This document shows, piece by piece, positions 2,644 through 55,319 of a stretch of DNA of 64,000 bases. The translations under genes were made by a program, and so were the position numbers. Within the stretch, counting starts at the first letter, position 1; every line of letters begins with the position of its first letter. A model generated the notes under the pieces. The model was given only the letters and a program-made list of their open reading frames with translations. It made no database searches and had not been told where the DNA came from. The stretch is from Pseudomonas sp. G.S.17 (GTDB lineage: Bacteria; Pseudomonadota; Gammaproteobacteria; Pseudomonadales; Pseudomonadaceae): the NCBI RefSeq assembly GCF_038096165.1, contig NZ_CP151076.1, positions 5,453,501-5,517,500 of the forward strand, given 5' to 3'.

Positions 2644-4830
2644 TTAGAAGCGGGCTGTCAGGGTGAGGTACGCCGAGCGCGGCTGAGTGGGCAATACCAG
2701 AGGCGAGCCGAGGTATTGATAGGTCTCGTAGACCTTGCGTCCTGTGAGGTTGACCGCTGAGACCGAGACCGTATAACGATCAAAATCGTAGGAAGTCTGT
2801 GCGTCCAGAAGTGCATAGCCGGGTGCGGACACCGTGTTGGGCAAGGTGAGTTCGCGTGCACTGAGCGCCGTGATACCTGCGCCAAACGCCAGACCCTTGG
2901 CGCTGCCATCGAGAATCCGATAGCGTGCTGCGAAGCGACCGCTGTGCCGGGGCACACGCGGCAGTCCATCACCGACTGGGATCGAGTTGTCATCTGTCAC
3001 TTCTGCCTGGGTGTACGCATAGTTGGCGAGCAACGAGAGGGCCGGGATTGGTTCCCAGACCAGATCCGCCTCCACTCCACGAGCGCGTTGTTCCCCGCTC
3101 TGCACCGAATAGCCCAGAAGCGCGTTAGCAGGATCAGGATCGGGGGTGGAGACATTACGGCGCGTTTGTTCAAACACCGCGAAGGTGCCAGAAAGGCCGA
3201 TATCGTCGAACGCCAGCTTGACGCCCACCTCATAGTTACGGGACAGCTCAGGCTTTGGTGTCTCGTTACCGATGAAGTTGAACGCCCCTCGGAAACCGGT
3301 TGAATACGCTGCGTAGAGCGCAAGGCTCTCGGTAAGGTCGTAGGTGATGCCCAGCCTTGGCGTGACACGGTGGTAAGAAGTGTCGACGCCCTGCTCCTGC
3401 TGCTTGAGGTCAAGTCGGGTCAGGCGCAACGAGCCCAGCAGGTGCCAGCGTCCATAGGTCGCTTGGTCCTGAAGATAAGCGGCCGTGGTCTCGTAGCGGT
3501 TGGTCTGTGTGAAGAGCACTTCAGGCGTCGCGCCGTAGGATATCCCGTAGCTCGGATTAGCGAGATCAAGCTCGCCTATCAGCTCGGCATTCGATACTCC
3601 TGAGGTGAAGTCCGTGCGGTCGTAACTGGCTCCAACGAGCAATTCATGGCTGCCGCCCAGCGCCTCAACACGGGTGCCCAAGTTTGTGTCCAGCGTGCTT
3701 TCGCGAACGTTTCCTGGCAGATAGAGCTTGAAAATAGGATAGACCGTGGGTGTCGCCGGATTCGCTCCAAGAAGCTCCGGATAAACAAAACTGCCATAGT
3801 CGCGAAACTTGCCCTCGTAGTACTGAGCGGTGACGCTCATTCGCGTGTCGTCGTTAAGCTCGTGGGTGAGTTGGGCAGTGGTTGTTCGGTTTTCGATAGT
3901 CGTCTGAGTCTGTCCCCTGGTCGCACCCGGAAAGGCGTTGCGATCGATCTGACCGCTCAATGCCTGCGTGGCTGGCAGGCCTGAATATTCGAGCTGGCTA
4001 CGATCCTCGTATTGGCCGCGCAGCAGCAACTCGGTCTCTGGCGTCAGCTGGAACGAGATGCTCGGCTGGATCGACCACTGATGGCCCTTCACGTGGTCAA
4101 TCCAGCTGTCGTTTTCCTGATAATCGGCGGAAAGCCGCGCAGAGACCTTGTCGCCGATGGGCGTATTGAGATCCATCGACGGATTCACCGTACCGAAGCT
4201 TCCGGTGCGCATCGACAGCAAGGCACTTGGCTCGGCCTCGGGTCGTTTGGAAATCACATTGATCAATCCCCCTAACGGCGCGCCAATCCCACCGCCATAA
4301 AGCGCAGATGTAGGACCTTTGAGCACCTCGATGCGCTCGGTGCCAATCAGGCTGGTCGGATCGATGCTTGCCGCTGTCCCTCCAAATGCGGGGAGCCCGT
4401 TCATGTAAATCTCAGCCGGAAAACCGCGCACGATGGGCTGAGCGAACAGCGCCTCTTGCGGCTTGGTCGCTCTTACTCCAGAGACGTTAACCAGCGCGTC
4501 GGCAAGCGAGTGACTGTCTTGCTCCTTGAGCATCGATTGGGTGACGACTTGCACCGATTGCGGGACTTGGATTAAAGGCGTGTCGGTGCGTGTGGCTGAT
4601 GAGGTTGTTGGCGATGTGTAGCCTTCAGGTGTACCTGAAACATTAATAGGCTCCAAGGTCCAGGTTTGCGACGGCTTGTATGTTTGTGTCTCATCTACGG
4701 CGGCGTTCTGCGGTTGTGCAGCCTGGGCAAACACTGGCGATGAAAGGCCTAAAAATATACAGAACGCATGACGCCAACGTAGGCGTGATGGATCAAGGTC
4801 AAACAGCTGCTCGTTCTGGGTCGAGTACAT
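2644..4830 (-). CDS. TonB-dependent siderophore receptor with copper-cassette leader
   Basis: Complete 728-residue outer-membrane receptor. The signal peptide ends at 'SPVFAQA'. The TonB box region lies near 'EPINVSGT', the plug contains 'IEVLKGPTSALYGGG' and 'GGLINVISKRP', and the barrel ends in the aromatic 'SAYLTLTARF'. The plug and barrel are of the ferric siderophore type (FhuA/FpvA-like, no STN domain). The first ~38 codons and the DNA upstream are clearly related to the leader of the broken OprC-like gene at 6745-7279, although the rest of the two proteins belongs to different receptor classes. The gene sits 99 bases after a DUF2946 gene and 12 before the PfpI-like gene, all on the minus strand. 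Confidence 0.93.
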   Translation of the reverse strand: MYSTQNEQLFDLDPSRLRWRHAFCIFLGLSSPVFAQAAQPQNAAVDETQTYKPSQTWTLEPINVSGTPEGYTSPTTSSATRTDTPLIQVPQSVQVVTQSMLKEQDSHSLADALVNVSGVRATKPQEALFAQPIVRGFPAEIYMNGLPAFGGTAASIDPTSLIGTERIEVLKGPTSALYGGGIGAPLGGLINVISKRPEAEPSALLSMRTGSFGTVNPSMDLNTPIGDKVSARLSADYQENDSWIDHVKGHQWSIQPSISFQLTPETELLLRGQYEDRSQLEYSGLPATQALSGQIDRNAFPGATRGQTQTTIENRTTTAQLTHELNDDTRMSVTAQYYEGKFRDYGSFVYPELLGANPATPTVYPIFKLYLPGNVRESTLDTNLGTRVEALGGSHELLVGASYDRTDFTSGVSNAELIGELDLANPSYGISYGATPEVLFTQTNRYETTAAYLQDQATYGRWHLLGSLRLTRLDLKQQEQGVDTSYHRVTPRLGITYDLTESLALYAAYSTGFRGAFNFIGNETPKPELSRNYEVGVKLAFDDIGLSGTFAVFEQTRRNVSTPDPDPANALLGYSVQSGEQRARGVEADLVWEPIPALSLLANYAYTQAEVTDDNSIPVGDGLPRVPRHSGRFAARYRILDGSAKGLAFGAGITALSARELTLPNTVSAPGYALLDAQTSYDFDRYTVSVSAVNLTGRKVYETYQYLGSPLVLPTQPRSAYLTLTARF

Positions 4831-40696: not shown

Positions 40697-42865
40697 TCAG
40701 AATCGATACGTTTCCGTCAACTGAAGCGTTCTTGGCGGGCTTGGCATCAGTGTGTAGTCAAATGTCGCAGCGGTGCCACCGGTGTAATACTCGCGGTCGA
40801 ACAGGTTGAAGACGTTCAGTTGCGTCGTCCATGATCCGATCTTGTAGGACGCCATCAAATCGGTGCGAACATAACCGGAAAGCTTGAAGGTGTTAGGCAG
40901 TGTCGCTTCGCGCGAGCCCACGTAATAGAGGCCGCCACCCAGTTGCAGTCCTTCAACGTACTCCAATTGGTAAGCCGTCCACAGGCTTGCGCTGTGGCGT
41001 GGGACACCACTCAGCACGTCGCCTGTTGGGTAGTTGCTATCACTACGCACTTTCGGCACGGTGTAGGTGTAACTCGCAGCGGTTTTCCAGCGGGGAGTGA
41101 TATTGCCAGTTATGTCCAGTTCTACGCCTTGGCTGCGCTGCTTGCCCGTCAACACTTGGAGCAAAGGATTGTTCGGATCCGTGGTCAGAATGTGATTGCG
41201 ATCTAAATTGAACACCGCCAGGTTCGCGTCTAGCCGGTCTTTGATCAGTTCATGCTTGAGGCCCACTTCGAACTGCTCGGCAACCTCTGCCTCGTAGGTC
41301 ACGTTGCTGCCGCTATGGCCTACGTTTGGAGCATGACTCAGGCTCCAATCGGCGAAGTACGACGTACTGTCGGTCGCTTGCCATACCACTCCCAAGCGTG
41401 GAGATAGCGTCGACTGTTCTCCTTTCCCTGTTTCGCCGCCCGACTCCTTGGCCCGGTTCTCGAATCGGTCTGCGCGCAAGCCCACCTGAAGTGTGAGTGA
41501 CGGTGTCAATCCGATTAGGTCCTGAATGTACAACCCGTAATCCTTGCCTTGCGATTCGTGGCCAATCAATGGGTCGGCAGGCGTCAGACCTGAACGGTAA
41601 TCAGGGTCGCTTAGATCCAAGGTCATAGTGGACACCTGTGAGCCTGAGTTCGCAAGTTTTTGCAAGCTATAGTCGGCACCGATCAGCAACTGGTGTTTGA
41701 CGTCGCCGGTGAACACATCACCCACCAATTCGGCGCGGGTGCCGAACTGCCGCGAAGACTCATCTGCGTCGCTGTAAACGGAATAGTCGAGCAGACTACC
41801 AGTGGGGACTGTGCTGCCAGGAAAAGACTGAGTCGAACGCTGCCTTGCGTACGTGTACTGCCCGGCGAGGCGCAGTTTCCAGGCGTCGGACAGCTGATGC
41901 TCGAACATCAGGGTTTCAGAAAGCGTGTCGTTCTTCCCATAATCACCATCAACTCCCGGATACATCTTGCTGGTGAGACCGTAGTAGCGGGTTCTGGATA
42001 GATCGCGATAGTTGGCGACGGCAGGTACACCAAGATCGAATCCATTACGGTTGAGATGGTTGTACTCACTTAGCAGCGTCAGAGAGGTACCGTCGTGGTT
42101 GTCCCACGTCACGGCGGGTGCGAATGACCATGAATGATCACGGGTTTCATCGCGGAATGTTGCATCCTGTTCCGCAGACGCGTTGAGCCGCACGCTTACG
42201 TCGTCGCTCAACACCCTATTCACATCCAGCGTACTACGCGCCATGTCGTATCGTCCTGCCGTACCGCTAATCTCACCGAAGTCACTCCATTCCGGCCTTT
42301 TGGAAACAGTGTTGATGTATCCACCAATCGCACCGATGCCGCCGTACAACGCGCCAGCGGGGCCCTTGAAAATCTCGACCTGATCAATGTTCTGTACATC
42401 GCGGAAAGCGTAGTAGCCGTAATTGCGGAAACCATCGCGCAGACCATTGCTTTCACTGAAGCCCCGGATGTTGAAAAAAGTTGCGCCATTACCCCCGTAA
42501 TTCGCTTCGGCATGTACACCGCTGACGGTCTCAGCTACCTGATCGATGCGGGTGACCCCTCGGTCTTTGAGCAGGTCGTTGGGAACAACTTGGATGGAGG
42601 CCGGGTAATCCTTGAGTGCAACATCCGTTCTGCTGGTATTGGCGGACTTCGGCGTGATGTAGCTCGAAATTGAAGTGCCTACAACTGAGGTGGCTGGCAG
42701 GTCGACGGCAGGATAAGCGGACGCTGAGTGCGACGATGCGGTATCGCCAACATCCGAGGTGATGTTGTCTTTCGCGAGCACAAGGCCCGGTGTGCACAAG
42801 ATTGCCGCAAGATAAAATTCAGAGGCGAGCGGGCACACAGGCCGCCGGATAAAGGTGCTGTTCAT
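40697..42865 (-). CDS. TonB-dependent siderophore receptor
   Basis: 722 residues from the ATG at 42865. Signal peptide 'LAAILCTPGLVLA', TonB-box region near 'LPATSVVGTSI', plug motifs 'IEFKGPAGALYGG'-like ('VEIFKGPAGALYGGIGAI') and 'GGYINTVSKRPEW', and a barrel ending 'RTLQLTETYRF' with terminal Phe. FhuA/FpvA-type without STN domain. A DUF2946-type gene lies upstream on the same strand, as in the cluster at 1-10 kb. A TTG nine codons earlier is possible but has no better ribosome site. Confidence 0.93.
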   Translation of the reverse strand: MNSTFIRRPVCPLASEFYLAAILCTPGLVLAKDNITSDVGDTASSHSASAYPAVDLPATSVVGTSISSYITPKSANTSRTDVALKDYPASIQVVPNDLLKDRGVTRIDQVAETVSGVHAEANYGGNGATFFNIRGFSESNGLRDGFRNYGYYAFRDVQNIDQVEIFKGPAGALYGGIGAIGGYINTVSKRPEWSDFGEISGTAGRYDMARSTLDVNRVLSDDVSVRLNASAEQDATFRDETRDHSWSFAPAVTWDNHDGTSLTLLSEYNHLNRNGFDLGVPAVANYRDLSRTRYYGLTSKMYPGVDGDYGKNDTLSETLMFEHQLSDAWKLRLAGQYTYARQRSTQSFPGSTVPTGSLLDYSVYSDADESSRQFGTRAELVGDVFTGDVKHQLLIGADYSLQKLANSGSQVSTMTLDLSDPDYRSGLTPADPLIGHESQGKDYGLYIQDLIGLTPSLTLQVGLRADRFENRAKESGGETGKGEQSTLSPRLGVVWQATDSTSYFADWSLSHAPNVGHSGSNVTYEAEVAEQFEVGLKHELIKDRLDANLAVFNLDRNHILTTDPNNPLLQVLTGKQRSQGVELDITGNITPRWKTAASYTYTVPKVRSDSNYPTGDVLSGVPRHSASLWTAYQLEYVEGLQLGGGLYYVGSREATLPNTFKLSGYVRTDLMASYKIGSWTTQLNVFNLFDREYYTGGTAATFDYTLMPSPPRTLQLTETYRF

Positions 42866-44459: not shown

Positions 44460-45353
44460 TTAAGGCAATGACGGTAAGAGCTTCATCTTATTTTTGACGA
44501 ACGCGAGAAACGCTTTTGTCAGGCGTGATGGAGTCATTCGTTCGGAGGTTACGATGGCATATTCAAAGTCAAGCTCGGGTGCAAACGGTCTTACCACCAC
44601 CTTATTACCGAGCGTGTTGGCTACTGCCGGGTCTATGATGGACACGCCTGCGCCGCAGCTAACAAAGGACGCGATAGCCGCTGACAGCTGGCATTCGATG
44701 TTTAGCTGGCGCTCTATCTGGCGGTTTGCGAATAGCTCATCGATGATGCGTCGGGTGTCCAGTTCTTTGGGGAATGAGATAAATGACTCTCCGGCTAAGT
44801 CCTCAGGAGTAATGCACTCCAGCTCTGCCAGCCTATGTCCATGGGGCAAAATACATCGCATGGGCGCTGTAAACAGCCGCTCTAGCTTTACGCCAGGCTG
44901 CCACGTCGTGTAAGTAATAAAGCCTAAGTCGCATTGCTCGTTAGCCACCATCTCACTCACGACTTTTGTTCCGTGAATTGCGAAAACCACAGTAACGCCC
45001 GCATGCAGCGAGATGAACTCTGAGATCCAGGCTGGCAGTAATCCTTCGGCCAACGCGGGGGCGCAGCATACGGTCAAAGCGCCTTTGTTTACCGAGCGAA
45101 TCTGACGCGCTGCATGAGCAATCCTCTCCACTCCGACAAAAGAGCGCTCCACCTCCCGATACAGCAGCGCGGCATCAGAGGTCGGAAACAGCCGACCTTT
45201 CTCCCGTGTAAAAAGCTTGAAACCCACTTCCTCCTCAAGATCGACGATCAATCGGGTCACGGCAGGCTGGGTGATACTCATCATCTCTGCTGCGCTGGTG
45301 ACTGAATGTCTGAGCATCACTGCACGAAAGGCTTCGAGCTGTCTGTTTTTCAT
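44460..45353 (-). CDS. LysR family regulator of the opine/histidine operon
   Basis: 297 residues from the ATG at 45353. HTH 'HSVTSAAEMMSITQPAVTRLIVDLEEEVGFKLFTRE' and sensor domain with 'LPHGHRLAELECITPEDLAGE'. It is of the OccR/NocR type that governs opine catabolism. Divergent from the binding-protein gene at 45637 with a 283-base regulatory region between them, so it most likely activates the nine-gene operon when the substrate is present. Confidence 0.9.
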   Translation of the reverse strand: MKNRQLEAFRAVMLRHSVTSAAEMMSITQPAVTRLIVDLEEEVGFKLFTREKGRLFPTSDAALLYREVERSFVGVERIAHAARQIRSVNKGALTVCCAPALAEGLLPAWISEFISLHAGVTVVFAIHGTKVVSEMVANEQCDLGFITYTTWQPGVKLERLFTAPMRCILPHGHRLAELECITPEDLAGESFISFPKELDTRRIIDELFANRQIERQLNIECQLSAAIASFVSCGAGVSIIDPAVANTLGNKVVVRPFAPELDFEYAIVTSERMTPSRLTKAFLAFVKNKMKLLPSLP

Positions 45354-45368
45354 TTCTTTTCTCTTTAT

Positions 45369-45461
45369 CATATCTAGACATTAATATGCGCTAACTTGGC
45401 GCGCTAGCGCACTGTATAGGTGCATTTGCAGCCAGATACAGGTGATTAACTCCTAGATATG
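45369..45461. promoter_or_regulatory. Distant inverted repeat in the LysR/operon intergenic region
   Basis: CATATCTAG at 45369-45377 and its exact inverse CTAGATATG at 45453-45461, in the AT-rich region between divergent promoters. Could be paired regulator half-sites with looping; equally could be chance. Confidence 0.25.
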
Positions 45462-45636
45462 CCAATTTATCAAAGCAAAATAGCAGAAAGATGCTAATCA
45501 TTCTGTTTGTATAGGTCATAACATTTGGACATTGGTTTTGTGTGAAAGGTAATTGGATCTCTTGGTTACTAGGGCAGACACTAGGTTTGCCCGGAATGTG
45601 CGGGCATTGACAGTGGCACTCAAATCAGGAGTCAAC

Positions 45637-46668
45637 ATGATCAGAAGATTCGCCCCCGCACTCGTCGCGGCATCACTGTTCGCAAGTCACGTCCAAGCAG
45701 ACCAGCCCATTCTGTACGTTGCTGTTTTTGGTGGTTCTTTTGAGAAACTGCTCAAAGAGCAGATCGTGCCGGACTTCGAAAAGCTGACCAGCAGCAAGGT
45801 GATTCTGGTCCCGGGCGATACGACAACCACTATGGCACGCATGCAGGCTCAGAAAGGTAAGCAGACTTTGGACGTTGCCTTCCTGGACGATGGCCCGATG
45901 TCCCAGGCTGCTCAGTTGGGTTATTGCGAGACGTTGACCGATGCTCCAATTTACAAGGACTTATTCGACGTCGCTCACTTCAAAAGTAATAAGGCTGTGA
46001 CCATCGGGCTCAACGGTACTGGCATTGTTTACAACGAGCGAGTATTCGCGGCCAAGGGATGGCCCCCCCCCACGTCGTGGAAAGATTTGGCGAACCCTTT
46101 ATATAAAGGGCACGTTCAGTTTCCAAGCATCACGAACGGTTACGGTCTCGAGGGCCTGGTGATGTTTGCGCGCCTCAATGGTGGGGGCGAGCAGACCATC
46201 GAGCCGGGGTTTACTGCGATAAAGACGAGCGTGGCACCTAATGTTCTGTCCTTCGATCCATCACCTGGAAAAATTTCCGAACTGTTCCAGAACGACAGCC
46301 TCTGGATTGGCGTTTGGGGGTCCGGTCGCACCCAAGCATTGCGCAATCAAGGCGTACCGGTGAAGTTCGTCGCTCCTAAAGAAGGGGCTATGGCCTTAGG
46401 ACTAAGCGTGTGCCCGGTCAAGCATGAGACCGTAAATACTTTGGCTCAGAAGTTTGTCCAGTACACCTTGAGTCCGGAAGTACAGGTGCTTTTTGCTGAT
46501 GGAGAAGGTGTGGCGCCAGTCAATAAGCACACCAAGTTACCACCTGCAGTTCTGGCAAAGGTTCCAGATCAAGAGACCGTTGAGGGAATGCTCAGCGTTG
46601 ATTGGGACGTGGTAAATGCCATGCGACCTGCCTGGATACAGCAGTGGAATCGTCAGATCGAACAATAA
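45637..46668 (+). CDS. ABC transporter binding protein (polyamine/opine type)
   Basis: 343 residues from the ATG at 45637 (AGGAGT upstream). Signal peptide ends 'SHVQADQ'. Family 1/8 binding protein related to PotD and FbpA: 'LYVAVFGGSFEKLLKEQIVPDFEK', 'DVAFLDDGPMSQAAQLGY', 'GLNGTGIVYNERVF', 'TSWKDLANPLYKGHVQFPS'. Captures the operon substrate in the periplasm. PotD-like carriers are also used for opines and modified amino acids. Confidence 0.9.
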   Translation: MIRRFAPALVAASLFASHVQADQPILYVAVFGGSFEKLLKEQIVPDFEKLTSSKVILVPGDTTTTMARMQAQKGKQTLDVAFLDDGPMSQAAQLGYCETLTDAPIYKDLFDVAHFKSNKAVTIGLNGTGIVYNERVFAAKGWPPPTSWKDLANPLYKGHVQFPSITNGYGLEGLVMFARLNGGGEQTIEPGFTAIKTSVAPNVLSFDPSPGKISELFQNDSLWIGVWGSGRTQALRNQGVPVKFVAPKEGAMALGLSVCPVKHETVNTLAQKFVQYTLSPEVQVLFADGEGVAPVNKHTKLPPAVLAKVPDQETVEGMLSVDWDVVNAMRPAWIQQWNRQIEQ

Positions 46669-46687
46669 AATCTACATAACAGGCGGT

Positions 46688-46702
46688 GCGGCTGAAAGCC
46701 GC
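46688..46702 (+). other. mRNA hairpin between binding-protein and ATPase genes
   Basis: GCGGCT-GAA-AGCCGC, a 6-bp GC stem 20 bases after the binding-protein stop. Such intercistronic stems often protect the upstream message, giving more binding protein than membrane components. No T-run, so not a full terminator. Confidence 0.45.
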
Positions 46703-46750
46703 CCTACCTGAGATGACATCTGTACGGACAAGCAAAAAGCGAGTCAGCAA

Positions 46751-47833
46751 ATGAGTTATTTGATTATCGAAGGCCTGAGCAAGTCCTACGGGGATGTGAG
46801 GGTCCTGCATGGAATCAATCTAAATATCGAACAGGGCGAATTCATTTCTCTGCTGGGGCCCTCGGGGTGTGGAAAGACAACTACGTTGCAAATGATCGCA
46901 GGCTTCCTCGAGCCCAGCGATGGCGATATCCGTTTACAGGGCAAGTCGTTATTGGGTCAGCCGCCAGCCCAGCGTGGCTTAGGCGTCGTGTTTCAAAGTT
47001 ATGCGCTGTTTGCGCACATGACTGTTCGGGAAAATATTGAATTCGGCCTCCAAATGCGCGGGGTTGCACGGGCCGAGCGAACGCGGCAAGTAAACCAGTC
47101 ACTGGAGTTGGTGCAACTGGGCGCCCATGCTGAAAAGTTTCCGCGCGACCTTTCCGGCGGTCAGCGGCAGCGCGTCGCATTGGCCAGGGCTTTGGTCATT
47201 AAGCCACCGTTGCTTTTGCTTGACGAACCTCTATCCAATCTGGACGCCAAGCTGCGTCACGATATGCAGACTGAGCTGCAAAGCATTCAACGCCAAGTGG
47301 GGACAACGACGATCATGGTCACTCATGATCAGGATGAGGCCTTGGCCATGAGCGATCGAGTTGCCCTGCTAGATCGTGGTCGCATTGTGCGTTTTGATAA
47401 ACCCAATCATCTCTATGACGATCCAGGTTCGCGCTTTGCTGCTGATTTCATCGGCCGCGCCAATCTGTTAACTGGCGAGATCGTGCTGCGGGGCAGTCAG
47501 CGACAATTCGTCTGTGGCGTAGGCAGTCTTAACCTCAATGCTGAAATCCCCTGTGGTCGCGCGACGTTGTCCTTGCGGCCTGAGCGAATTGACCTTGTTG
47601 ATAGTTCGAATGCCGTTCTTCGTGGTCAGGTAATGGGATGCGTGTTTAAGGGGAATTGCTGGCTGGTCACGGTCATGACCGAGCTTGGGGTTCTGCATGT
47701 TATGCGTGCAAATCGCGGTCAGCTTGCCGTGTTGCCTGGTGAACATGTCGGTCTAGCGTGGGAGCCTTCGGCTCTACGTCACTTGATTATTAGTAATGAT
47801 TCAGCAGCGACCTCTTCTGGGGTGGAACCATGA
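46751..47833 (+). CDS. ABC transporter ATP-binding protein (PotA-like)
   Basis: 360 residues. Walker A 'LGPSGCGKTTTLQMIAG', Q-loop 'VFQSYALFAHMTVREN', signature 'DLSGGQRQRVALARALV', Walker B 'LLLLDEPLSNLDAKL', switch 'MVTHDQDEALAMSDR'. The C-terminal TOBE-type domain (residues ~240-345) is present ('LSLRPERIDLV'). Overlaps the next gene by ATGA. Energises import with the two permeases. Confidence 0.94.
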   Translation: MSYLIIEGLSKSYGDVRVLHGINLNIEQGEFISLLGPSGCGKTTTLQMIAGFLEPSDGDIRLQGKSLLGQPPAQRGLGVVFQSYALFAHMTVRENIEFGLQMRGVARAERTRQVNQSLELVQLGAHAEKFPRDLSGGQRQRVALARALVIKPPLLLLDEPLSNLDAKLRHDMQTELQSIQRQVGTTTIMVTHDQDEALAMSDRVALLDRGRIVRFDKPNHLYDDPGSRFAADFIGRANLLTGEIVLRGSQRQFVCGVGSLNLNAEIPCGRATLSLRPERIDLVDSSNAVLRGQVMGCVFKGNCWLVTVMTELGVLHVMRANRGQLAVLPGEHVGLAWEPSALRHLIISNDSAATSSGVEP

Positions 47834-48729
47834 ATCAAGTTTCTGTATTGGCTCCTCGGCGGAAAGCCTTCTCTTTTAGTAGCCGTGCACTGTTACTGCT
47901 ACTGCCAGCGAGTCTATTGTTCATCGCTCTCCTCGCAATTCCAATGTTGATGATGGGCGAATTAAGCCTGTACAGTTTTGATATAACTACCAGCACCATG
48001 TTGCCTGCCCGCTCGTTGCATAACTACGCCTTAGTCCTAGTCGATCCTTATTACCAAACGATTTTTCTGCGCACCTTGGGGCTGGCGTTAGCTGTCACAG
48101 TGGGCGCAGTGGTGCTTGGCGTCCCAGAGGCTTACATCATCTATCGGATGCGGCCCCGCTGGCGTACGTGCTTCCTGATCCTGACCTTGGCTCCGTTGCT
48201 GATCTCTGCGGTTGTCAGGACTCTCGGCTGGTCGATCTTGCTCAGTCAGAACGGAATCATTGGTAGCGTGCTCGTGTGGTTGGGGCTGATGGATAGCAAT
48301 GCACAACTGCTGTTCTCGTTTTGGGCTGTGGTTGTGGTTCTGATCCATGCCTTAGTGCCGTTGGTCATTTTGTCAGTCTGGACCTCGTTGCAAGGCATAG
48401 ACCCTCAGAGTTGTGATGCTGCCCTTAGCCTGGGTGCTGGACAACTGACGGTCTGGCGTCGAATCGTATTGCCCCAAGTGTTGCCTGGTGTGTTGTCCGG
48501 GAGCCTGATGACATTCGCCCTTAGTGCTAGTGCGTTTGCTACCCCGGCGCTGATTGGCGGCCGACGTTTGAAGGTCGCAGCAACCGCTGCTTACGATGAG
48601 TTTCTCAATACCCTGAACTGGCCGATGGGCGCGACCATCGCGGTTCTATTGCTGCTGATTAACCTTCTGGTGATTGGGGTGTACGGCAAGTTAGTCGAAC
48701 GTCGAATTCAAAAACGGCTGGGGCGCTGA
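47830..48729 (+). CDS. ABC transporter permease 1 (PotB-like)
   Basis: 299 residues, about six helices. EAA loop 'AALSLGAGQLTVWRRIVLPQVLPGVLSGSL' contacts the ATPase. ATGA overlap with the ATPase gene, one base before the next permease gene. First of the two membrane subunits. Confidence 0.93.
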   Translation: MNQVSVLAPRRKAFSFSSRALLLLLPASLLFIALLAIPMLMMGELSLYSFDITTSTMLPARSLHNYALVLVDPYYQTIFLRTLGLALAVTVGAVVLGVPEAYIIYRMRPRWRTCFLILTLAPLLISAVVRTLGWSILLSQNGIIGSVLVWLGLMDSNAQLLFSFWAVVVVLIHALVPLVILSVWTSLQGIDPQSCDAALSLGAGQLTVWRRIVLPQVLPGVLSGSLMTFALSASAFATPALIGGRRLKVAATAAYDEFLNTLNWPMGATIAVLLLLINLLVIGVYGKLVERRIQKRLGR

Positions 48730-48730
48730 C

Positions 48731-49528
48731 ATGAACAAAAATGGAGTCTTGGCGCTCGTTTTTCACAGCATTTTTTCAGTGTTCCTGGCAGCACCTTTGG
48801 TCGTCGTGTGTCTGGTCGCTTTTACACCGGATAACATGTTGACCATTCCGACACTGCACTTTTCACTGCGCTGGTTCGTAGCGCTGTTCAATGACAACGG
48901 TTTTATCACTGCATTCTGGAACAGCATTATTCTGGCGACTCTTTCCGCGACAGGGGCCGCGCTACTAGGTGTTCCTGCTGCTATGGGATTGTCTCGTTAC
49001 CAGTTTCCCGGTCGGGCGGCTCTGAACGGTTTGCTGTTGTCGCCGTTGATGATTCCTCCTGTAGTTCTCGGCGTTGCGTTGCTGCGGCTATTTAATGAAT
49101 TCAACGTGAACGGTTCGTTTAGCTCGTTGGTATTGGCTCACGTGATGTTGATCTTTCCTTACTCGCTGCGCCTGATCATGGCGTCGATGGTGAGTCTTTC
49201 TCGTGAGCCTGAGCATGCAGCGATGTCTCTAGGCGCTAGCGCCTGGACGACCTTTCGGCGCATCACGTTTCCCTCGCTTCTCCCTGGAATACTTGGCGGT
49301 TGGGTGCTGGCGTTTGCCAGTAGTTTTGACGAACTGACTGCCACCATATTCCTCGCTTCCCCCGCGACAATCACCTTGCCAGTGCGGATCTATATGAGCA
49401 TGACCGAAACCGTTGATCCCATGGTCGCGGCCGTGGCAGTCGTGATCATCGCGGTGACCTTGGGCTTGATGATCGTGCTTGACCGACTGGTAGGGCTGGA
49501 CAAAGTTTTAATGGGAAAAAAATCATGA
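48731..49528 (+). CDS. ABC transporter permease 2 (PotC-like)
   Basis: 265 residues, six helices, EAA loop 'MSLGASAWTTFRRITFPSLLPGILGGW'. Overlaps the FAD oxidase gene by ATGA, showing that import and oxidation are expressed together. Confidence 0.93.
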   Translation: MNKNGVLALVFHSIFSVFLAAPLVVVCLVAFTPDNMLTIPTLHFSLRWFVALFNDNGFITAFWNSIILATLSATGAALLGVPAAMGLSRYQFPGRAALNGLLLSPLMIPPVVLGVALLRLFNEFNVNGSFSSLVLAHVMLIFPYSLRLIMASMVSLSREPEHAAMSLGASAWTTFRRITFPSLLPGILGGWVLAFASSFDELTATIFLASPATITLPVRIYMSMTETVDPMVAAVAVVIIAVTLGLMIVLDRLVGLDKVLMGKKS

Positions 49529-50625
49529 AGATCGATTACGACTACGTAGTGGTCGGTGGCGGGCTGGTGGGGATGGCCATCGCTTATGGACTGGCTAAAC
49601 GAGGTGTCAGAACTCTGGTGCTGGATGGCGAGGACTCAAGCATACGCGCCGCCCGAGGCAACTTCGGCCTGGTATGGGTCTCGAGTAAGGGTTCCAAGCA
49701 AATCGATTATGCACGCTGGTCATTGGAGTCCTCGCAGCTTTGGCCCGGCTTCTGCCAAGAACTTGAAGACGCCAGTGGTATGAAACTGGGGTACGAAAAA
49801 CCCGGCGGGATGATGATCGCGATGAGCGAGCAAGGTCTGGCCAGCAGTGCAGCGGGGCTGGCAAAACTCCATGCGCAAGACAACAGATTGACCTATGAAG
49901 TCCTAGATAACGCGCAGTTGAAGGAGCGTATACCAGCGATCGGCGCCGACGTGACCGGGGCCGTCTACTCGCCCCACGACGGGCACGTCAGTCCGCTCTA
50001 TACATTACGCGGCCTTTTCGCGGGCTTTGAGCAGGCCGGAGGCGTCTATAAGACCGACTCACGTGTCGATTTGATTGTTCCGCATGAGGGTGGTTTCCGG
50101 CTAACCGTGGGCAAACAGGTAATCGATGCTGGAAAAGTTGTTCTGTGTGCCGGCCTTGGGAATCGTGAATTGGCACCTATGGTGGGCCTGCGCGCTCCTG
50201 TAGTGCCGCTTCGGGGGCAAATTCTAGTGACCGAGCGGGTCAAACGGTTTCTTGATTACCCGACCATCTCTGTACGCCAGACGGCCGAGGGTTCGCTGTT
50301 ATTGGGAGAGTCCGCTGAGGATGTGGATATGGATGACGGTGTAACCCCTGGGGTCATTGCTCATATCGCACAGAAAGCAATTGCGCCGTTTCCCATGCTC
50401 AAAAACGTCCGCGTTGTACGAGCTTGGGGTTCGCTGCGGATTATGACCCCTGACAGCATGCCGATTTACGAAGAATCACTCACCCATCCTGGTGCGTTTG
50501 TTGCCATGTGCCATAGCGGCGTGACGCTGGCGGCAGCCCATTGCGAAAAACTCGTGCCCTGGCTGATGGGTGCTCCACGTCCCTCTCTTCTCGATTACTT
50601 CTATGCCAAACGTTTCGCTATTTAA
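49525..50625 (+). CDS. FAD-dependent amine oxidase, opine oxidase subunit B / HcnC type
   Basis: 366 residues of the DAO fold. FAD site 'YVVVGGGLVGMAIAYGLAKRG'; then 'RAARGNFGLVWVSSKGSK', a signature of the OoxB/NoxB/HcnC group; the C-terminal 'RAWGSLRIMTPDSMPIYEES' and 'CHSGVTLAAAHCE' complete the FAD fold. In opine oxidases this subunit oxidises the secondary amine C-N bond to an imine that hydrolyses to amino acid and keto acid. It overlaps the ferredoxin-like gene by 23 bases. Confidence 0.9.
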   Translation: MKIDYDYVVVGGGLVGMAIAYGLAKRGVRTLVLDGEDSSIRAARGNFGLVWVSSKGSKQIDYARWSLESSQLWPGFCQELEDASGMKLGYEKPGGMMIAMSEQGLASSAAGLAKLHAQDNRLTYEVLDNAQLKERIPAIGADVTGAVYSPHDGHVSPLYTLRGLFAGFEQAGGVYKTDSRVDLIVPHEGGFRLTVGKQVIDAGKVVLCAGLGNRELAPMVGLRAPVVPLRGQILVTERVKRFLDYPTISVRQTAEGSLLLGESAEDVDMDDGVTPGVIAHIAQKAIAPFPMLKNVRVVRAWGSLRIMTPDSMPIYEESLTHPGAFVAMCHSGVTLAAAHCEKLVPWLMGAPRPSLLDYFYAKRFAI

Positions 50626-50911
50626 CGCGCGCGCCAGTGCGCCATCCACTCAGGTTTCAATCCTGATAAATGGGCATGACTTTTCAGTGCCTGAATACAT
50701 GACAGTAGCGGCTGCGTTGCTGAGTGTAGGCATCACTCAGGTTCGCGAGACACCGGTGTCGAATGCTCCGAGGGCACCGTTCTGCATGATGGGTGCCTGT
50801 TTTGAATGCCTGGTGGAAATTGACGGCGTTCCGAATCAACAGGCCTGTATGACGCTGGTGAAGCCCGGAATGACGATTCGATCCATGATCGGAGCCAGGA
50901 GTCTCAAATGA
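50603..50911 (+). CDS. Small [2Fe-2S] subunit (HcnA / opine oxidase-like)
   Basis: 102 residues from the ATG at 50603. Ferredoxin-like: 'VSILINGHDFSVPEYMTVAAALLS' then cluster Cys in 'PFCMMGACFECLVEIDG' and 'QQACMTLV'. It carries electrons between the FAD oxidase and the next subunit. Overlaps both neighbours (23 bases and 4 bases), so the three proteins are probably made in equal amounts as a complex. Confidence 0.88.
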   Translation: MPNVSLFNARASAPSTQVSILINGHDFSVPEYMTVAAALLSVGITQVRETPVSNAPRAPFCMMGACFECLVEIDGVPNQQACMTLVKPGMTIRSMIGARSLK

Positions 50912-52341
50912 GCATGATCCATGTTGACCTTCTAATCATCGGCGCAGGCCCGGCTGGTATGGCCTGCGCGTTACAGGCCAAAGAGGCGGGCCTTGATGTA
51001 TTGTTGATGGATGAAAATCCCCTGCCTGGGGGACAGATTTATCGCAGCGTCTCCCAGTCTCCTCTGGCTGACCCCATTTTGTTGGGCAAAGACTATACCG
51101 CTGGTGCGGCGCTGGTAGAGCGTTTCCTAGCCAGCAGCGTTACCTACTGGCCAGGTACCTTGGCGTGGCAAATTACCCAGGACCGGCAAGTTAGCTTTAC
51201 TCGCAATGGACCTAGTGGCGGTAGTGGCCAGATTCAGGCTCGCGCATTAGTGATCGCTAATGGCGCTCAAGAGCGGCCCTCTCCATTTCCGGGCTGGACA
51301 TTGCCTGGCGTTATGGGAATCGGCGCGGCTCAAACGCTGTTGAAGTCAGCGGCGCTTTTACCGAGCAAGCGCGTTGTACTCGCTGGAAGCGGGCCGTTGC
51401 TCTATTTGTTTGCCTGGCAATTGATAAGGTCGGGCAGTTCCGTGGCAGCGATTCTGGACACCACTCCACGAAATAATCGTCTTCCTGCACTTCGCCATTT
51501 GTTTTCAGCGTTGCGTGCCCCAGGATATTTACTCAAAGGGCTAGGTCTATTAAGGGCTATTGCCGCAAGTTCTATCCCGCATATCCGTCAGGTCGAAACG
51601 CTGGAAGCGCGGGGCGATGGCGCAGTAGATAGCGTTCGCTACTCCGTAGGTGGGTCCTTCACGGATATTGGCTCTGACCTACTGCTGGTCCATCAGGGGG
51701 TCATTCCAAATGTTCAGTTGTCCCGCTCTCTGGGTTGTGAGCACTGTTGGGACGAGGTGCAATTATGTTGGCGTCCTGATGCTGATGTTTGGGGTGAAAC
51801 ATCACTGGCGGGAGTTTTCATCGCGGGTGACGGTGCAGGGATTGATGGCGCGAAGGCAGCAGAGCTTTCCGGCGCACTGACAGCACTACGGATCAGTCAA
51901 CAACTTGGATGTTTGACAGAGAACGTCCGAGATACAAAAGCGCTCAAGCTACAACGTCAGTTAAATCGCCATCAAGCTGTACGGCCATTTCTAGACACGT
52001 TGTATCGCCCCGCAGACATTTTTCGTCGTCCCGCAGACCAGACTATTGTTTGCCGGTGCGAAGAAGTCAGTGCGGGTGATATCCGGGCGATGAGCCGACT
52101 CGGTTGCAGTGGGCCTAATCAAACGAAATCATTTTCGCGTTGCGGCATGGGCCCATGTCAGGGGCGCATGTGCGGCCTAGTTGTTGCTGAACTCTTGGCC
52201 GAGTGCACAAAGGCAACGATGCAGAAGGTAGGTTACTACCGGATTCGGCCTCCGATCAAGCCAGTACAGCTAGTTGACTTGGCAAACGCATATGTTCCGG
52301 ATGTGAATGCGGTCCCGTTGAAAGAGTTTGCACCTAAGTAG
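50908..52341 (+). CDS. FAD/NAD(P) oxidoreductase, opine oxidase subunit A / HcnB type
   Basis: 477 residues. Two dinucleotide folds ('LLIIGAGPAGMACALQAKEAG', 'RVVLAGSGPLLYLFAWQL'), the 'MDENPLPGGQIYR' motif of the group, and a C-terminal BFD-type [2Fe-2S] domain with 'IVCRCEEVSAGDI' and 'CGMGPCQGRMCG'. Together with the two preceding genes it forms the three-part oxidase known from opine catabolism and HCN synthase. With an importer and histidine ammonia-lyase present, an opine-type role fits better than cyanide production. Confidence 0.9.
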   Translation: MSMIHVDLLIIGAGPAGMACALQAKEAGLDVLLMDENPLPGGQIYRSVSQSPLADPILLGKDYTAGAALVERFLASSVTYWPGTLAWQITQDRQVSFTRNGPSGGSGQIQARALVIANGAQERPSPFPGWTLPGVMGIGAAQTLLKSAALLPSKRVVLAGSGPLLYLFAWQLIRSGSSVAAILDTTPRNNRLPALRHLFSALRAPGYLLKGLGLLRAIAASSIPHIRQVETLEARGDGAVDSVRYSVGGSFTDIGSDLLLVHQGVIPNVQLSRSLGCEHCWDEVQLCWRPDADVWGETSLAGVFIAGDGAGIDGAKAAELSGALTALRISQQLGCLTENVRDTKALKLQRQLNRHQAVRPFLDTLYRPADIFRRPADQTIVCRCEEVSAGDIRAMSRLGCSGPNQTKSFSRCGMGPCQGRMCGLVVAELLAECTKATMQKVGYYRIRPPIKPVQLVDLANAYVPDVNAVPLKEFAPK

Positions 52342-52421
52342 CTTGACCTCTGTTTTAGATCGAAGTGGATGCCTTGGGTGGTTTCTGAGCTTCCTTATTA
52401 TTAATCCTTCAGGAGTTTAAA

Positions 52422-52775
52422 GTGAAAGATATTGTTCGTATCGACAGTAATCACCGTATGAGTCGGGCCGTTGTTAGTAATGGTTTTGTGTTCGTTGGCG
52501 GCCAAACAGCCGCAGACTCTACACAGGACATCAAAGGCCAGACCGCCCAAGTATTGAAAAAAATAGACGGATTTCTGGAGAAAGCGGGAGTAGACAAAAC
52601 CCGCATTGTTTCCGCGCAGATATGGCTCGCAGACATTAAGTGCCATTTTTCGGACATGAACGAGGTATGGGATGCGTGGGTGCCGCAAGGGCATACGCCC
52701 GCCCGTGCTACGGTCGAGTCGCGACTGGCTTTGCCAGAGCTGCTGATAGAAATCACAGTTGTAGCGGCTGTCTAG
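52422..52775 (+). CDS. RidA family imine/enamine deaminase
   Basis: 117 residues, GTG start with CAGGAG upstream. 'SRAVVSNGFVFVGGQTA', 'QTAQVLKKIDGFLEKAGVDKTRIVSAQIWLAD', 'PARATVESRLALPELLIEI' with the catalytic Arg in 'PARATVES'. RidA proteins hydrolyse reactive imines; here it would clear the imine made by the FAD oxidase, which supports the proposed chemistry. Confidence 0.9.
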   Translation: MKDIVRIDSNHRMSRAVVSNGFVFVGGQTAADSTQDIKGQTAQVLKKIDGFLEKAGVDKTRIVSAQIWLADIKCHFSDMNEVWDAWVPQGHTPARATVESRLALPELLIEITVVAAV

Positions 52776-52809
52776 TCTTTCTAGGTCAACACCGTTTTAG
52801 AGGAATGCT

Positions 52810-54342
52810 ATGAACAAGCTCGAAATAACTCCTGGGCAAATGACCTTACGGGAGTTGAGGAGTGTCTACGCCAGCCCTACAAAACTGACGCTTGCGAAGC
52901 ACGCTTCAGACGATATAGCGGCGAGTGTCCGCTGCGTCGAAAGCATCCTCAGCGAGGGGCGTACAGCTTACGGGATCAATACCGGTTTTGGATTACTCGC
53001 TTCTACGCGGATTGCCACTTCTGATCTGGAAAACCTTCAGCGTTCGCTGGTGCTCTCCCATGCTGCCGGGGTTGGAGAGGCGTTGGATGATGCTATGGTT
53101 CGACTGATCATGGTACTGAAGGTCAATAGCCTCGCGAGGGGATACTCGGGGATTCGCAAGATTGTCATTGATGCGATAGTTTCTTTGATTAACGCTGAGG
53201 TATACCCACACATCCCGGCGAAGGGCTCTGTGGGCGCCTCAGGCGACTTGGCACCGCTAGCGCACATGTCCCTGATTCTCATAGGTGAAGGCAAAGCCAG
53301 ATTCCAAGGGCGCTGGGTGTCTGCGGGTGAGGCGCTGCAACAGGCCGGAATTGAGTCTGTCACGCTTGCAGCAAAAGAAGGCCTGGCGCTTCTGAATGGC
53401 ACTCAAGTATCAACGGCATACGCGTTACGTGGACTGTTCGAAGCGGAAGATTTGTTCGCAGCAGCTACGGTATGTGGTGCCTTGAGTGTAGAGGCCCTGT
53501 TAGGTTCTCGTTCTCCGTTTGATGCACGTATCCATGCGGCACGAGGGCAGCTTGGACAGATCGCCGTGGCCAGCGCCTATCGTGAGCTGCTGACGCCTTC
53601 TACTGAAATCTCTGAGTCGCATGCTGAGTGCGGTAAGGTTCAAGATCCTTATTCACTGAGGTGCCAACCGCAGGTCATGGGAGCGTGTCTTACACAACTG
53701 CGCAACGCTTGCGACATCTTGGCAATTGAATCGAACGCCGTGTCAGACAACCCACTTGTCTTCGCAAACGAGGGAGATGTGATCTCAGGTGGGAATTTCC
53801 ACGCAGAGCCTGTCGCAATGGCAGCAGATAATATTGCGTTGGCAATCGCCGAAATGGGGGCTCTATCAGAAAGACGCACGTCCTTGATGATGGACAAACA
53901 CATGTCGCAGTTACCCTCATTTCTGGTTGCAAACGGGGGGGTAAACTCAGGCTTCATGATTGCCCAAGTTACCGCCGCCGCGTTGGCGAGTGACAACAAG
54001 GCGCTTGCCCACCCGCATAGTGTTGACAGCCTGCCGACTTCTGCTAACCAGGAGGATCATGTGTCGATGGCCCCCAACGCAGGGCGCCGGCTATGGGCGA
54101 TGGCTGAAAACACGCGCGGAGTTATCGCGATTGAATGGCTGGCTGCTTGCCAAGGGCTGGACCTTCGCGACGGGTTAAAAACGTCGCCAATGCTTGAGTG
54201 CGCTCGGACGATTTTGAGGGAGAAGGTTGCTTATTACGAAAAAGATCGTTTCTTCGCTCCGGATATTGAAGCCGTCACGATCTTACTCGCTGATAATGCC
54301 TTGCATAGTCTCGTGCCCCAGGAATTACTTTTGAATTTTTAG
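52810..54342 (+). CDS. hutH: Histidine ammonia-lyase
   Basis: 510 residues, GAGGAA site 6 bases before ATG. MIO-forming Ala-Ser-Gly in '[17 protein letters not shown]'; active-site Tyr in '[14 protein letters not shown]'; His in '[11 protein letters not shown]'; Asn in '[10 protein letters not shown]'; Arg in '[13 protein letters not shown]'; Glu in '[14 protein letters not shown]'. All residues expected for true HAL (histidine to urocanate + ammonia) are kept, and none of the changes typical for Tyr or Phe lyases is seen. No hutU, hutI or hutG lies here, so urocanate must feed a hut pathway elsewhere. Probably a second, operon-specific copy. Ergothionase is an alternative for HAL-like genes but less likely by these motifs. 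Confidence 0.92.
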
Positions 54343-54437
54343 TTCTTCGGATTGATTTCTTCTCCTTCCTGTCGACTTGAGTGTGTGCTGAAATGACTCA
54401 GAGTCATACCTTTGGTAATTAAAAAAGGAATTAAAAT

Positions 54438-55319
54438 ATGCGCGTCTTTGCTCTGGTGTTTTTGTTGTTGATGTCGTTTTTTTCAATCGCGCAGGCTGCG
54501 ATGATCAAAGTGTCTAATGATCTGGATATTCACTATGAAAGCTCCGGACAGGGGGAGAACGTCATACTTCTTGTGCCAGGCTGGACCATGAGCACGGAAG
54601 TGTATGCACATCAGTTGGAGCATTTCAAAGACTCTAAAGATTATAAGTTAATAGTTATCGATCCCCGGAGTCAGGGCCTGTCGACCCATACAGTCGAAGG
54701 GAATTTCTATGAGCAGCACGGTCGTGATATTGCTGATTTTATGAAAGCCCTCGACTTACATAACGTTGTGTTGGGTGGCTGGTCCTACGGAGGCTTTGAT
54801 ATTTTAGCGTATGTGCATCAGTTTGGGACGGACAACCTCAAAGGATTTATTATGATGGATTCTGTACCCAAATGTCTTGGGGGCGATGATCCAAAGCACT
54901 CGAGTGACTGGTATTGGTTTACGTCTGATGGTTCGGACGGAGTACGGGAGCACTTCACACAAGGCGTATTGTTACGTCGTGAGCAGCTGAACGATGAGTT
55001 TGCACGTTACATGGTTGATAACCCACATCCAGAGTACATTAAGTGGATAACGCGGATTAGCAATCAGACGGGAGATGGTGTTGCTGCCTTGCTGAATGAG
55101 TCTGGCTCCTATCAAAACTACGAAACCGACCTCAAGGGGATGGAAGGAAAGGTACCTCTGTTTTATTACATGAGTCAAAAAAGTCAGCGTGTGGATGAGT
55201 GGAGTAAAATTAATACGCCGTCAGCAACGATAGTAAAGTTTGGGAAGCATCTGTCTTTTTGGGAGTATCCTGAACACTTCAACGACGCGCTGGATAAATT
55301 TCTAACTGACATTAAGTAA
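54438..55319 (+). CDS. Secreted alpha/beta hydrolase
   Basis: 293 residues. Signal peptide 'VFLLLMSFFSIAQAAM'. Fold motifs 'ILLVPGWTMSTEVYAHQLEHF', 'VIDPRSQGLS', nucleophile elbow 'LGGWSYGGFD' (Ser), and likely catalytic His in 'FGKHLSFWEYPEHF'. Lower GC than its neighbours (A/T-rich codons, AT-rich leader), a sign of separate origin. Close relatives act on esters or lactones; substrate unknown. IS66 debris begins directly after the stop. Confidence 0.85.
   Translation: MRVFALVFLLLMSFFSIAQAAMIKVSNDLDIHYESSGQGENVILLVPGWTMSTEVYAHQLEHFKDSKDYKLIVIDPRSQGLSTHTVEGNFYEQHGRDIADFMKALDLHNVVLGGWSYGGFDILAYVHQFGTDNLKGFIMMDSVPKCLGGDDPKHSSDWYWFTSDGSDGVREHFTQGVLLRREQLNDEFARYMVDNPHPEYIKWITRISNQTGDGVAALLNESGSYQNYETDLKGMEGKVPLFYYMSQKSQRVDEWSKINTPSATIVKFGKHLSFWEYPEHFNDALDKFLTDIK

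Follow-up and report, generated by a model that had tools for sequence, protein, structure and literature searches.

A candidate catabolic operon for histidine-derived opines on the chromosome of Pseudomonas sp. G.S.17

What is broken down by an operon in which the importer and oxidase of an opine pathway are followed by a histidase? We examined this question for positions 44460 to 54342 of a 64,000-nucleotide stretch of Pseudomonas sp. G.S.17 (contig NZ_CP151076.1; the whole stretch is called the window here), a locus with one divergent LysR gene and nine co-directed genes. The source genome comprises 6.27 Mb in two contigs, and the nearest named relatives of the operon are Pseudomonas. The original prediction for this locus, drawn from its letters alone, was a pathway in which an N-substituted histidine is imported, oxidized, and passed on to urocanate. 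Our analysis gives good support to reading the locus as an opine operon and makes histidine the likely amino-acid part of the substrate, and we lean toward a chromosomal opine-catabolic operon specialized for a histidine-derived opine.

Gene plan and oxidase class

Gene families from the importer to the histidase were assigned by profile matches (Pfam and NCBIfam), and these matches confirmed, each in its place, the genes that the original prediction had named. The features of the locus are as follows.

44460..45371, minus strand: LysR-type regulator, OccR/NocR-like, divergent (PF03466 and PF00126)
45372..45636, no strand: regulatory region with two repeats and a leader hairpin, aligned in five orthologous operons
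45637..46668, plus strand: periplasmic binding protein, PotD/PhnS-type (PF13416; conserved start)
46751..47833, plus strand: importer ATPase, PotA-type (PF00005 and TOBE_2; 49% to the pTiS4 operon)
47830..48729, plus strand: importer permease, PotB-type (PF00528; 51% to pTiS4)
48731..49528, plus strand: importer permease, PotC-type (PF00528; 46% to pTiS4)
49525..50625, plus strand: catalytic beta-subunit of an opine-type flavin dehydrogenase (OoxB/NoxB/OdhB; DAO domain PF01266; GxGxxG and RAW [RxW] motifs; trees)
50603..50911, plus strand: gamma-subunit, 2Fe-2S (OdhC; PF13510; CX4CX2CX12C)
50908..52341, plus strand: alpha-subunit (OoxA/NoxA/OdhA; Pyr_redox_2, SO_alpha_A3, and Fer2_BFD; CRCEE and GMGPCQGRxC aligned with OoxA and NoxA)
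52422..52775, plus strand: RidA-family imine deaminase, GTG start (PF01042; same position as RidA of the occ operon)
52810..54342, plus strand: histidine ammonia-lyase (TIGR01225 above cutoff; active-site triad ASG)

The locus had been described as one tightly overlapping operon. The nine co-directed genes do form a tight run, but the LysR gene is divergent and lies outside the operon, and there are gaps of 82 bp between binding protein and ATPase, 80 bp between oxidase and RidA, and 34 bp between RidA and histidase; the remaining junctions overlap or nearly touch. Judged by its conservation, the gene cluster is not a chance arrangement, because the genes from the importer to RidA are kept at 79 to 100% per gene in four other Pseudomonas genomes.

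The gene plan is collinear with that of the octopine Ti plasmid (NC_002377), where occR is divergent and is followed by the importer (occQMPT), ooxB, a Fer2 gene, ooxA, RidA, a hypothetical gene, and ocd. The two operons share a divergent LysR gene, an ATP-binding cassette (ABC) importer, the ooxB-Fer2-ooxA set, RidA, and a terminal amino-acid-degrading enzyme. The occ operon lies on a plasmid, has an OccQMPT-type importer, and ends in ornithine cyclodeaminase, whereas the window has a PotABCD-type importer and a histidase. The regulator had been called OccR-like, which is borne out by identities of 39% to OccR and 37% to NocR (and 35% to the pTiS4 regulator). A further operon, before traR on pTiS4, shares the LysR gene, the PotABCD-type importer, and the B-C-A dehydrogenase (43 to 51% identity for importer and oxidase subunits), but it lacks RidA and a terminal amino-acid-degrading enzyme, with traR next, whereas the window has RidA and a histidase. 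This pTiS4 operon lies near ipt and the vitopine synthase gene. An opine cluster near T-DNA3 (transferred DNA 3) of pTiS4 is argued in PMC8554961 to be likely for vitopine, and we take that cluster to be the operon before traR. The same importer type and oxidase also precede traR on pB19.1.4a.

Outside the Ti plasmids, OdhBCA of Pseudomonas putida KT2440 and OdhB1-C-A-B2 of Bradyrhizobium japonicum (PMC4575208) have the same subunit order and cofactor motifs and are chromosomal. Both act on nopaline or octopine, whereas the window has a single beta-subunit together with a histidase. As in the window, oox-like genes are found outside the Rhizobiaceae in the octopine-using Pseudomonas CG7 (PMC10745273) and P. 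kilonensis 1855-344 (PMC4432341). CG7 grows on octopine with oox-like genes and without arc, odh, or ocd, none of which lies beside its oxidase, and the available text of these two papers reports no histidase for either strain. On pTiC58 (nox-arc-odh-ocd), arginase and ornithine cyclodeaminase genes lie 3' of noxA, and on a Klebsiella plasmid arginine succinyltransferase genes adjoin such an oxidase. A degrading enzyme beside an opine oxidase, where present, fits the amino acid set free, and many loci have none.

The earlier statement that no described pathway has this gene set holds in part. The plan of regulator, importer, oxidase, RidA, and amino-acid-degrading enzyme is known from the occ operon, and the histidase ending is the part that may be new. 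Among the matches listed from the open literature, with subscription journals mostly outside, we found no description of a histidase-ended opine operon, which is weak evidence of absence, and no paper on a dedicated histopine catabolic route; PMC7106674 uses histidase or hut terms and opine terms apart, with no such operon.

Gene order, motifs, and relatives support the assignment of the oxidase as a predicted opine-type flavin dehydrogenase, the substrate of which we infer. Its genes stand in beta-gamma-alpha order with overlapping ends, an order that matches that of flavin opine dehydrogenases. The latter have tandem beta-gamma-alpha genes with two dinucleotide-binding motifs, RxW (flavin mononucleotide, FMN), and 2Fe-2S motifs in the gamma- and alpha-subunits, and purified enzymes with this B-C-A order and these motifs were active on nopaline or octopine (PMC4575208). 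The window oxidase has GxGxxG, RAW as its RxW, and CX4CX2CX12C in the gamma-subunit; the strict alpha-subunit pattern of PMC4575208 gave no regular-expression match, yet the cysteines of CxC and GMGPCQGRxC in the alpha-subunit align with those of OoxA and NoxA. The beta-subunit has 39% identity to both OoxB and NoxB and 47% to its pTiS4 counterpart. For comparison, the proven nopaline dehydrogenase subunit PpOdhB stands at 40% to OoxB and NoxB (PMC4575208). In trees of 33 and 35 rows, the deep forks of which are moderately or weakly supported with long branches, the window beta-subunit groups with OoxB, NoxB, and pTiS4, apart from LhpB and three putative HcnC proteins.

These trees divide the earlier description of the oxidase as OoxAB/HcnABC-like: the first likeness stands, and the grouping with putative hydrogen cyanide (HCN) synthase does not. 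It is very improbable that the enzyme is an HCN synthase or a D-amino-acid or hydroxyproline dehydrogenase, even though all belong to one superfamily and relatives are sometimes annotated as HcnC. The window beta-subunit is 26 to 28% identical to the DAO gene products of three stand-alone clusters with the order Fer2-Pyr-DAO, which we take to be hcnABC by gene order and protein length (NCBIfam gave no specific name). HcnABC was rejected because the stand-alone Fer2-alpha-DAO order differs from that of the window and because the putative HcnC proteins form a separate clade at a long distance. D-Hydroxyproline dehydrogenase was likewise rejected, with LhpB far from the window beta-subunit in the tree; the LhpB reference adjoins a hydroxyproline epimerase, confirmed by NCBIfam (551 bits versus a cutoff of 442).

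A second opine-type operon is present in the G.S.17 genome (C1:2861000-2880500; L029:4169-13566). It has a B1-C-A-B2 arrangement with RidA and resembles the octopine dehydrogenase cluster of Bradyrhizobium japonicum, and B1-C-A-B2-like operons with RidA recur across the genus. A further family combines a PotABCD-type importer with Fer2-Pyr-DAO genes (L182-L185, L192, and probably L166), with a DAO nearer the beta-2 type.

The histidase, its spread, and its origins

The last gene had been called a canonical histidine ammonia-lyase, and this was upheld: it scores 712 bits against NCBIfam hutH (TIGR01225; cutoff, 539) and shares 75% identity with P. putida HutH across an alignment of 505 residues. 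It has the triad ASG of the 4-methylideneimidazole-5-one (MIO) group, and the equivalents of Y53, H83, N195, Q277, R283, F329, M382, and E414 (P. putida numbering) are identical with an offset of +1. Roles of the equivalent active-site residues in histidine ammonia-lyase are described in PMC11432326. The operon histidase most likely acts on L-histidine, because its family score, MIO triad, and active-site residues match P. putida HutH.

Searches of the genus with the catalytic subunit matched 12 of 119 genomes at a threshold of E 1e-60 and 42 of 398 at E 1e-90, the two samples overlapping. The 398-genome search recovered the G.S.17 operon and orthologues in GR12-2 (99%) and G386 (91%), and a pattern scan of GTDB r220 led to 3 confirmed loci among 49 matching stretches, namely, ANT_J12, WZ006, and GR12-2 again. 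A histidase lies 3' of RidA in three of the five orthologous operons (G.S.17, GR12-2, and WZ006; tblastn of whole regions). All other matches of both genus searches make up 53 opine-type Pseudomonas loci; no match to histidine ammonia-lyase (HAL), hutU, or hutG was found at E 1e-10 in the regions around them (up to 20 kb, some cut by contig ends, such as L163 at 8 kb and L030 at 15.6 kb). RidA is not distinctive, with a tblastn match in 51 of the 53. HAL, hutU, and hutG also had no match in 12 plasmid regions, chosen from 701 records with a match, 207 in another search, a search with a relative, and named Ti plasmids. Class-wide, matches were found in 6 of 369 genomes including G.S.17, the other five at 45 to 51%. 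Among the best 120 of 6186 relatives of the catalytic subunit, 24 were full-length proteins at 61 to 90%, and named relatives from Burkholderia, Caballeronia, Herbaspirillum, and Pandoraea stood at 63 to 68%.

A tree of 44 proteins placed the histidases of the window and GR12-2 and two database histidases in one clade, with HutH of P. aeruginosa, Cupriavidus, Acinetobacter, and three same-genus genomes as its sister (fork 92/86). The WZ006 operon histidase fell among the ordinary hut-operon HutH proteins of the genus (fork 94/90). In the approximately unbiased (AU) test with 44 rows, the hypothesis that the operon histidases and the two database proteins arose only once was rejected (P = 0.037). 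Further, the spacer between RidA and histidase is 34 bp in the window versus ∼245 bp in WZ006, with no similarity at E 1e-3. The GC content at third codon positions in the window is 56 for the histidase and 52 to 61 for the operon, compared with 74 and 76 for two further HutH-like genes measured in G.S.17; in WZ006 it is 70 for the operon histidase, 75 for its oxidase, and 93 for its own hutH. Two histidase lineages thus probably landed separately at the same operon position, and two separate recruitments at one position are best explained by free histidine as the product. The predicted opine-type oxidative cleavage with histidine as its end product finds support in this probable double recruitment and in the grouping of the oxidase.

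The G.S.17 genome encodes HutF, HutC, HutU, and HutG, as well as HutI (84% to a protein passing TIGR01224). The sole HutH-like protein of its hut operon lacks the MIO triad, and canonical hutH is missing there, as it is in GR12-2; another triad-bearing HutH-like gene lies elsewhere in the genome (61%; 688 bits to TIGR01225). These facts bear on a different reading, namely, that the operon serves a general or other opine (octopine-, lysopine-, or vitopine-like) and that the histidase at its end is a housekeeping hutH, either relocated or acquired, that merely chances to lie there. We judge this unlikely, while giving it real weight. With canonical hutH missing from the hut operons of G.S.17 and GR12-2, another copy would be kept, and a relocated gene also agrees with the operons of ANT_J12 and G386, which have no histidase. 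It agrees poorly with WZ006, which has a hut-operon hutH plus an operon histidase of the other lineage at the same position. Moreover, the window histidase forms its own clade, has no more than 79% identity to the hut-operon hutH genes found, and shares the base composition of the operon, and such a rider was seen in none of the 53 other loci.

It is important to note several points that weigh against a system specialized for histidine. The orthologous operons of ANT_J12 and G386 end at RidA, so either the system can do without the histidase or it accepts a wider range of substrates. In G.S.17 and GR12-2 the hut operon lacks its usual hutH, so the histidase of the opine operon may also, or simply, serve ordinary histidine use; the functional reading is weakest at this point. 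The sequences of the binding protein and the dehydrogenase give no pointer to histidine, and the specificity of the dehydrogenase could be broad. In addition, the forks that place the two histidase lineages (92/86 and 94/90) are not fully supported, and with fewer rows a single origin was not rejected (AU P = 0.143 for 29 proteins and 0.117 for 25 genes). The group for the test with P = 0.037 was named after the first trees were known, and it included the two database proteins.

Canonical hutH is absent in both G.S.17 (L005) and GR12-2 (L117), whose opine operons carry the divergent histidase. Its loss is not peculiar to those two, as 5 of 36 genomes of the genus have no HutH match at E 1e-150. 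The HutH-like paralogue of Pseudomonas hut operons (L005:14256-15827 in G.S.17) is 37 to 41% identical to the window histidase. It lacks the MIO triad (GSVGYLTHM at that position) in 30 of 30 entries of that type, some of them fragments of one gene, yet it is retained. A separate mini hut cluster (L103, G010:C1:2618000-2636000) contains a histidase, HutU (93% to that of G.S.17), an amino-acid importer, and a HutC-like regulator, and the same genome also has a main hut operon (L104).

Substrate and proposed pathway

In the proposed pathway, the LysR protein would sense the imported opine and switch the operon on, and the PotABCD-type importer would take up an N-substituted L-histidine, the natural candidate being histopine, N2-(1-carboxyethyl)-L-histidine. 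The three-subunit flavin/2Fe-2S dehydrogenase, its class assigned from sequence and its substrate putative, would oxidize the C-N bond to an imine, and RidA-assisted hydrolysis would yield free L-histidine and a keto acid. The operon histidase would then convert histidine to urocanate, a step strongly supported by sequence, and chromosomal HutU, HutI, HutF, and HutG, the genes for which are present, would complete the breakdown. That the operon represents a dedicated histidine-opine pathway, assembled probably twice outside the crown-gall bacteria, with histopine or a relative feeding the urocanate route, seems to us an evenly balanced proposition.

Among the named crown-gall opines, histopine falls in the octopine family, and octopine synthase also makes it, from histidine and pyruvate. 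For OccJ, the octopine binding protein, the values for histopine are 33 μM by fluorescence and 326 μM by titration, compared with 17 nM for octopinic acid (PMC5740067). Given this poor binding by OccJ, a different importer for histopine would make sense. Histopine itself as the substrate is a guess on our part, and a doubtful one.

The substrate might instead be an N-substituted histidine from outside crown gall: an N-alpha-methyl histidine, a conjugate of a sugar with histidine (Amadori type), or a piece of a histidine-based metallophore from another species. Many amines are cleaved by DAO-type relatives, histidine is a component of both pseudopaline and staphylopine, and the binding protein shows a distant relationship to the mannopine-binding protein, which binds a sugar-amino acid (weak match to 5l9s, E 2.8e-5). 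Such substrates are nevertheless improbable: the whole gene plan is that of the occ and pTiS4 opine operons, and every gene of the run falls into an importer, oxidase, RidA, or histidase family, which leaves none for handling sugars or metallophores. The staphylopine-type dehydrogenase PF10100 is absent from the G.S.17 genome, which says nothing on other species' metallophores, and the same search matched 1 of 148 family genomes; a link between the operon and a pseudopaline/staphylopine-type metallophore made by the strain thus found no support. The octopine/nopaline synthase family PF02317 had no match in the five operon-bearing genomes, while three Ti plasmids, the positive control, were matched. 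Synthesis of an opine or metallophore by the strain was therefore dropped as a source. The strain probably eats a compound made by others, because the opine-synthase and staphylopine-type synthase families searched (PF02317 and PF10100) were not found.

If a histidine-derived opine is indeed the substrate, the operon would point to candidates for the import of histopine, its oxidation, and its entry into histidine breakdown, and it would provide a sensor for histidine opines. It would also support the rule that the terminal amino-acid enzyme of an opine operon reveals the amino acid of the opine, and it would mean that histidine opines occur in soil or the rhizosphere at levels worth a private importer.

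Regulatory region, gene starts, and surroundings

Two imperfect ATTTnGACAT-like repeats, at 45373-45381 (extending into the lysR side) and 45522-45532, were aligned in the five orthologous operons. A short leader hairpin at 45589-45607, directly 5' of the ribosome-binding site, is kept in all five. A perfect palindrome at 45387-45411 was dropped as an operator candidate, as it is not conserved among the orthologous operons. For the HutC operator CTTGTATGTACAAG, with as many as 3 mismatches allowed, the only site found was at 41521, which is outside the operon, whereas chance alone would give 3.04. An Rfam search of 45300-54500 gave no match, a tRNA search of the window found none, and promoter and terminator scans gave counts below chance expectation.

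The open reading frame (ORF) of the binding protein as listed begins at TTG 45553. Its true start is most likely ATG 45637, because an AGGAG box and that ATG are kept in the five orthologous operons; the N terminus then resembles a signal peptide, as judged by eye. The LysR regulator has an alternative possible start at ATG 45353. For the gamma-subunit we used a predicted start at 50603, the ORF as listed beginning at GTG 50570.

An alpha/beta hydrolase gene 3' of the histidase (54438-55319) has a much lower GC content (45%) and is retained in GR12-2. Positions 4001 to 60000 of the window are low in GC (52 to 57% per 4 kb, versus 59 to 61% in seven other stretches of the genome) and hold IS66-type and integrase-core transposases. 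From its composition and contents, the region surrounding the operon looks acquired.

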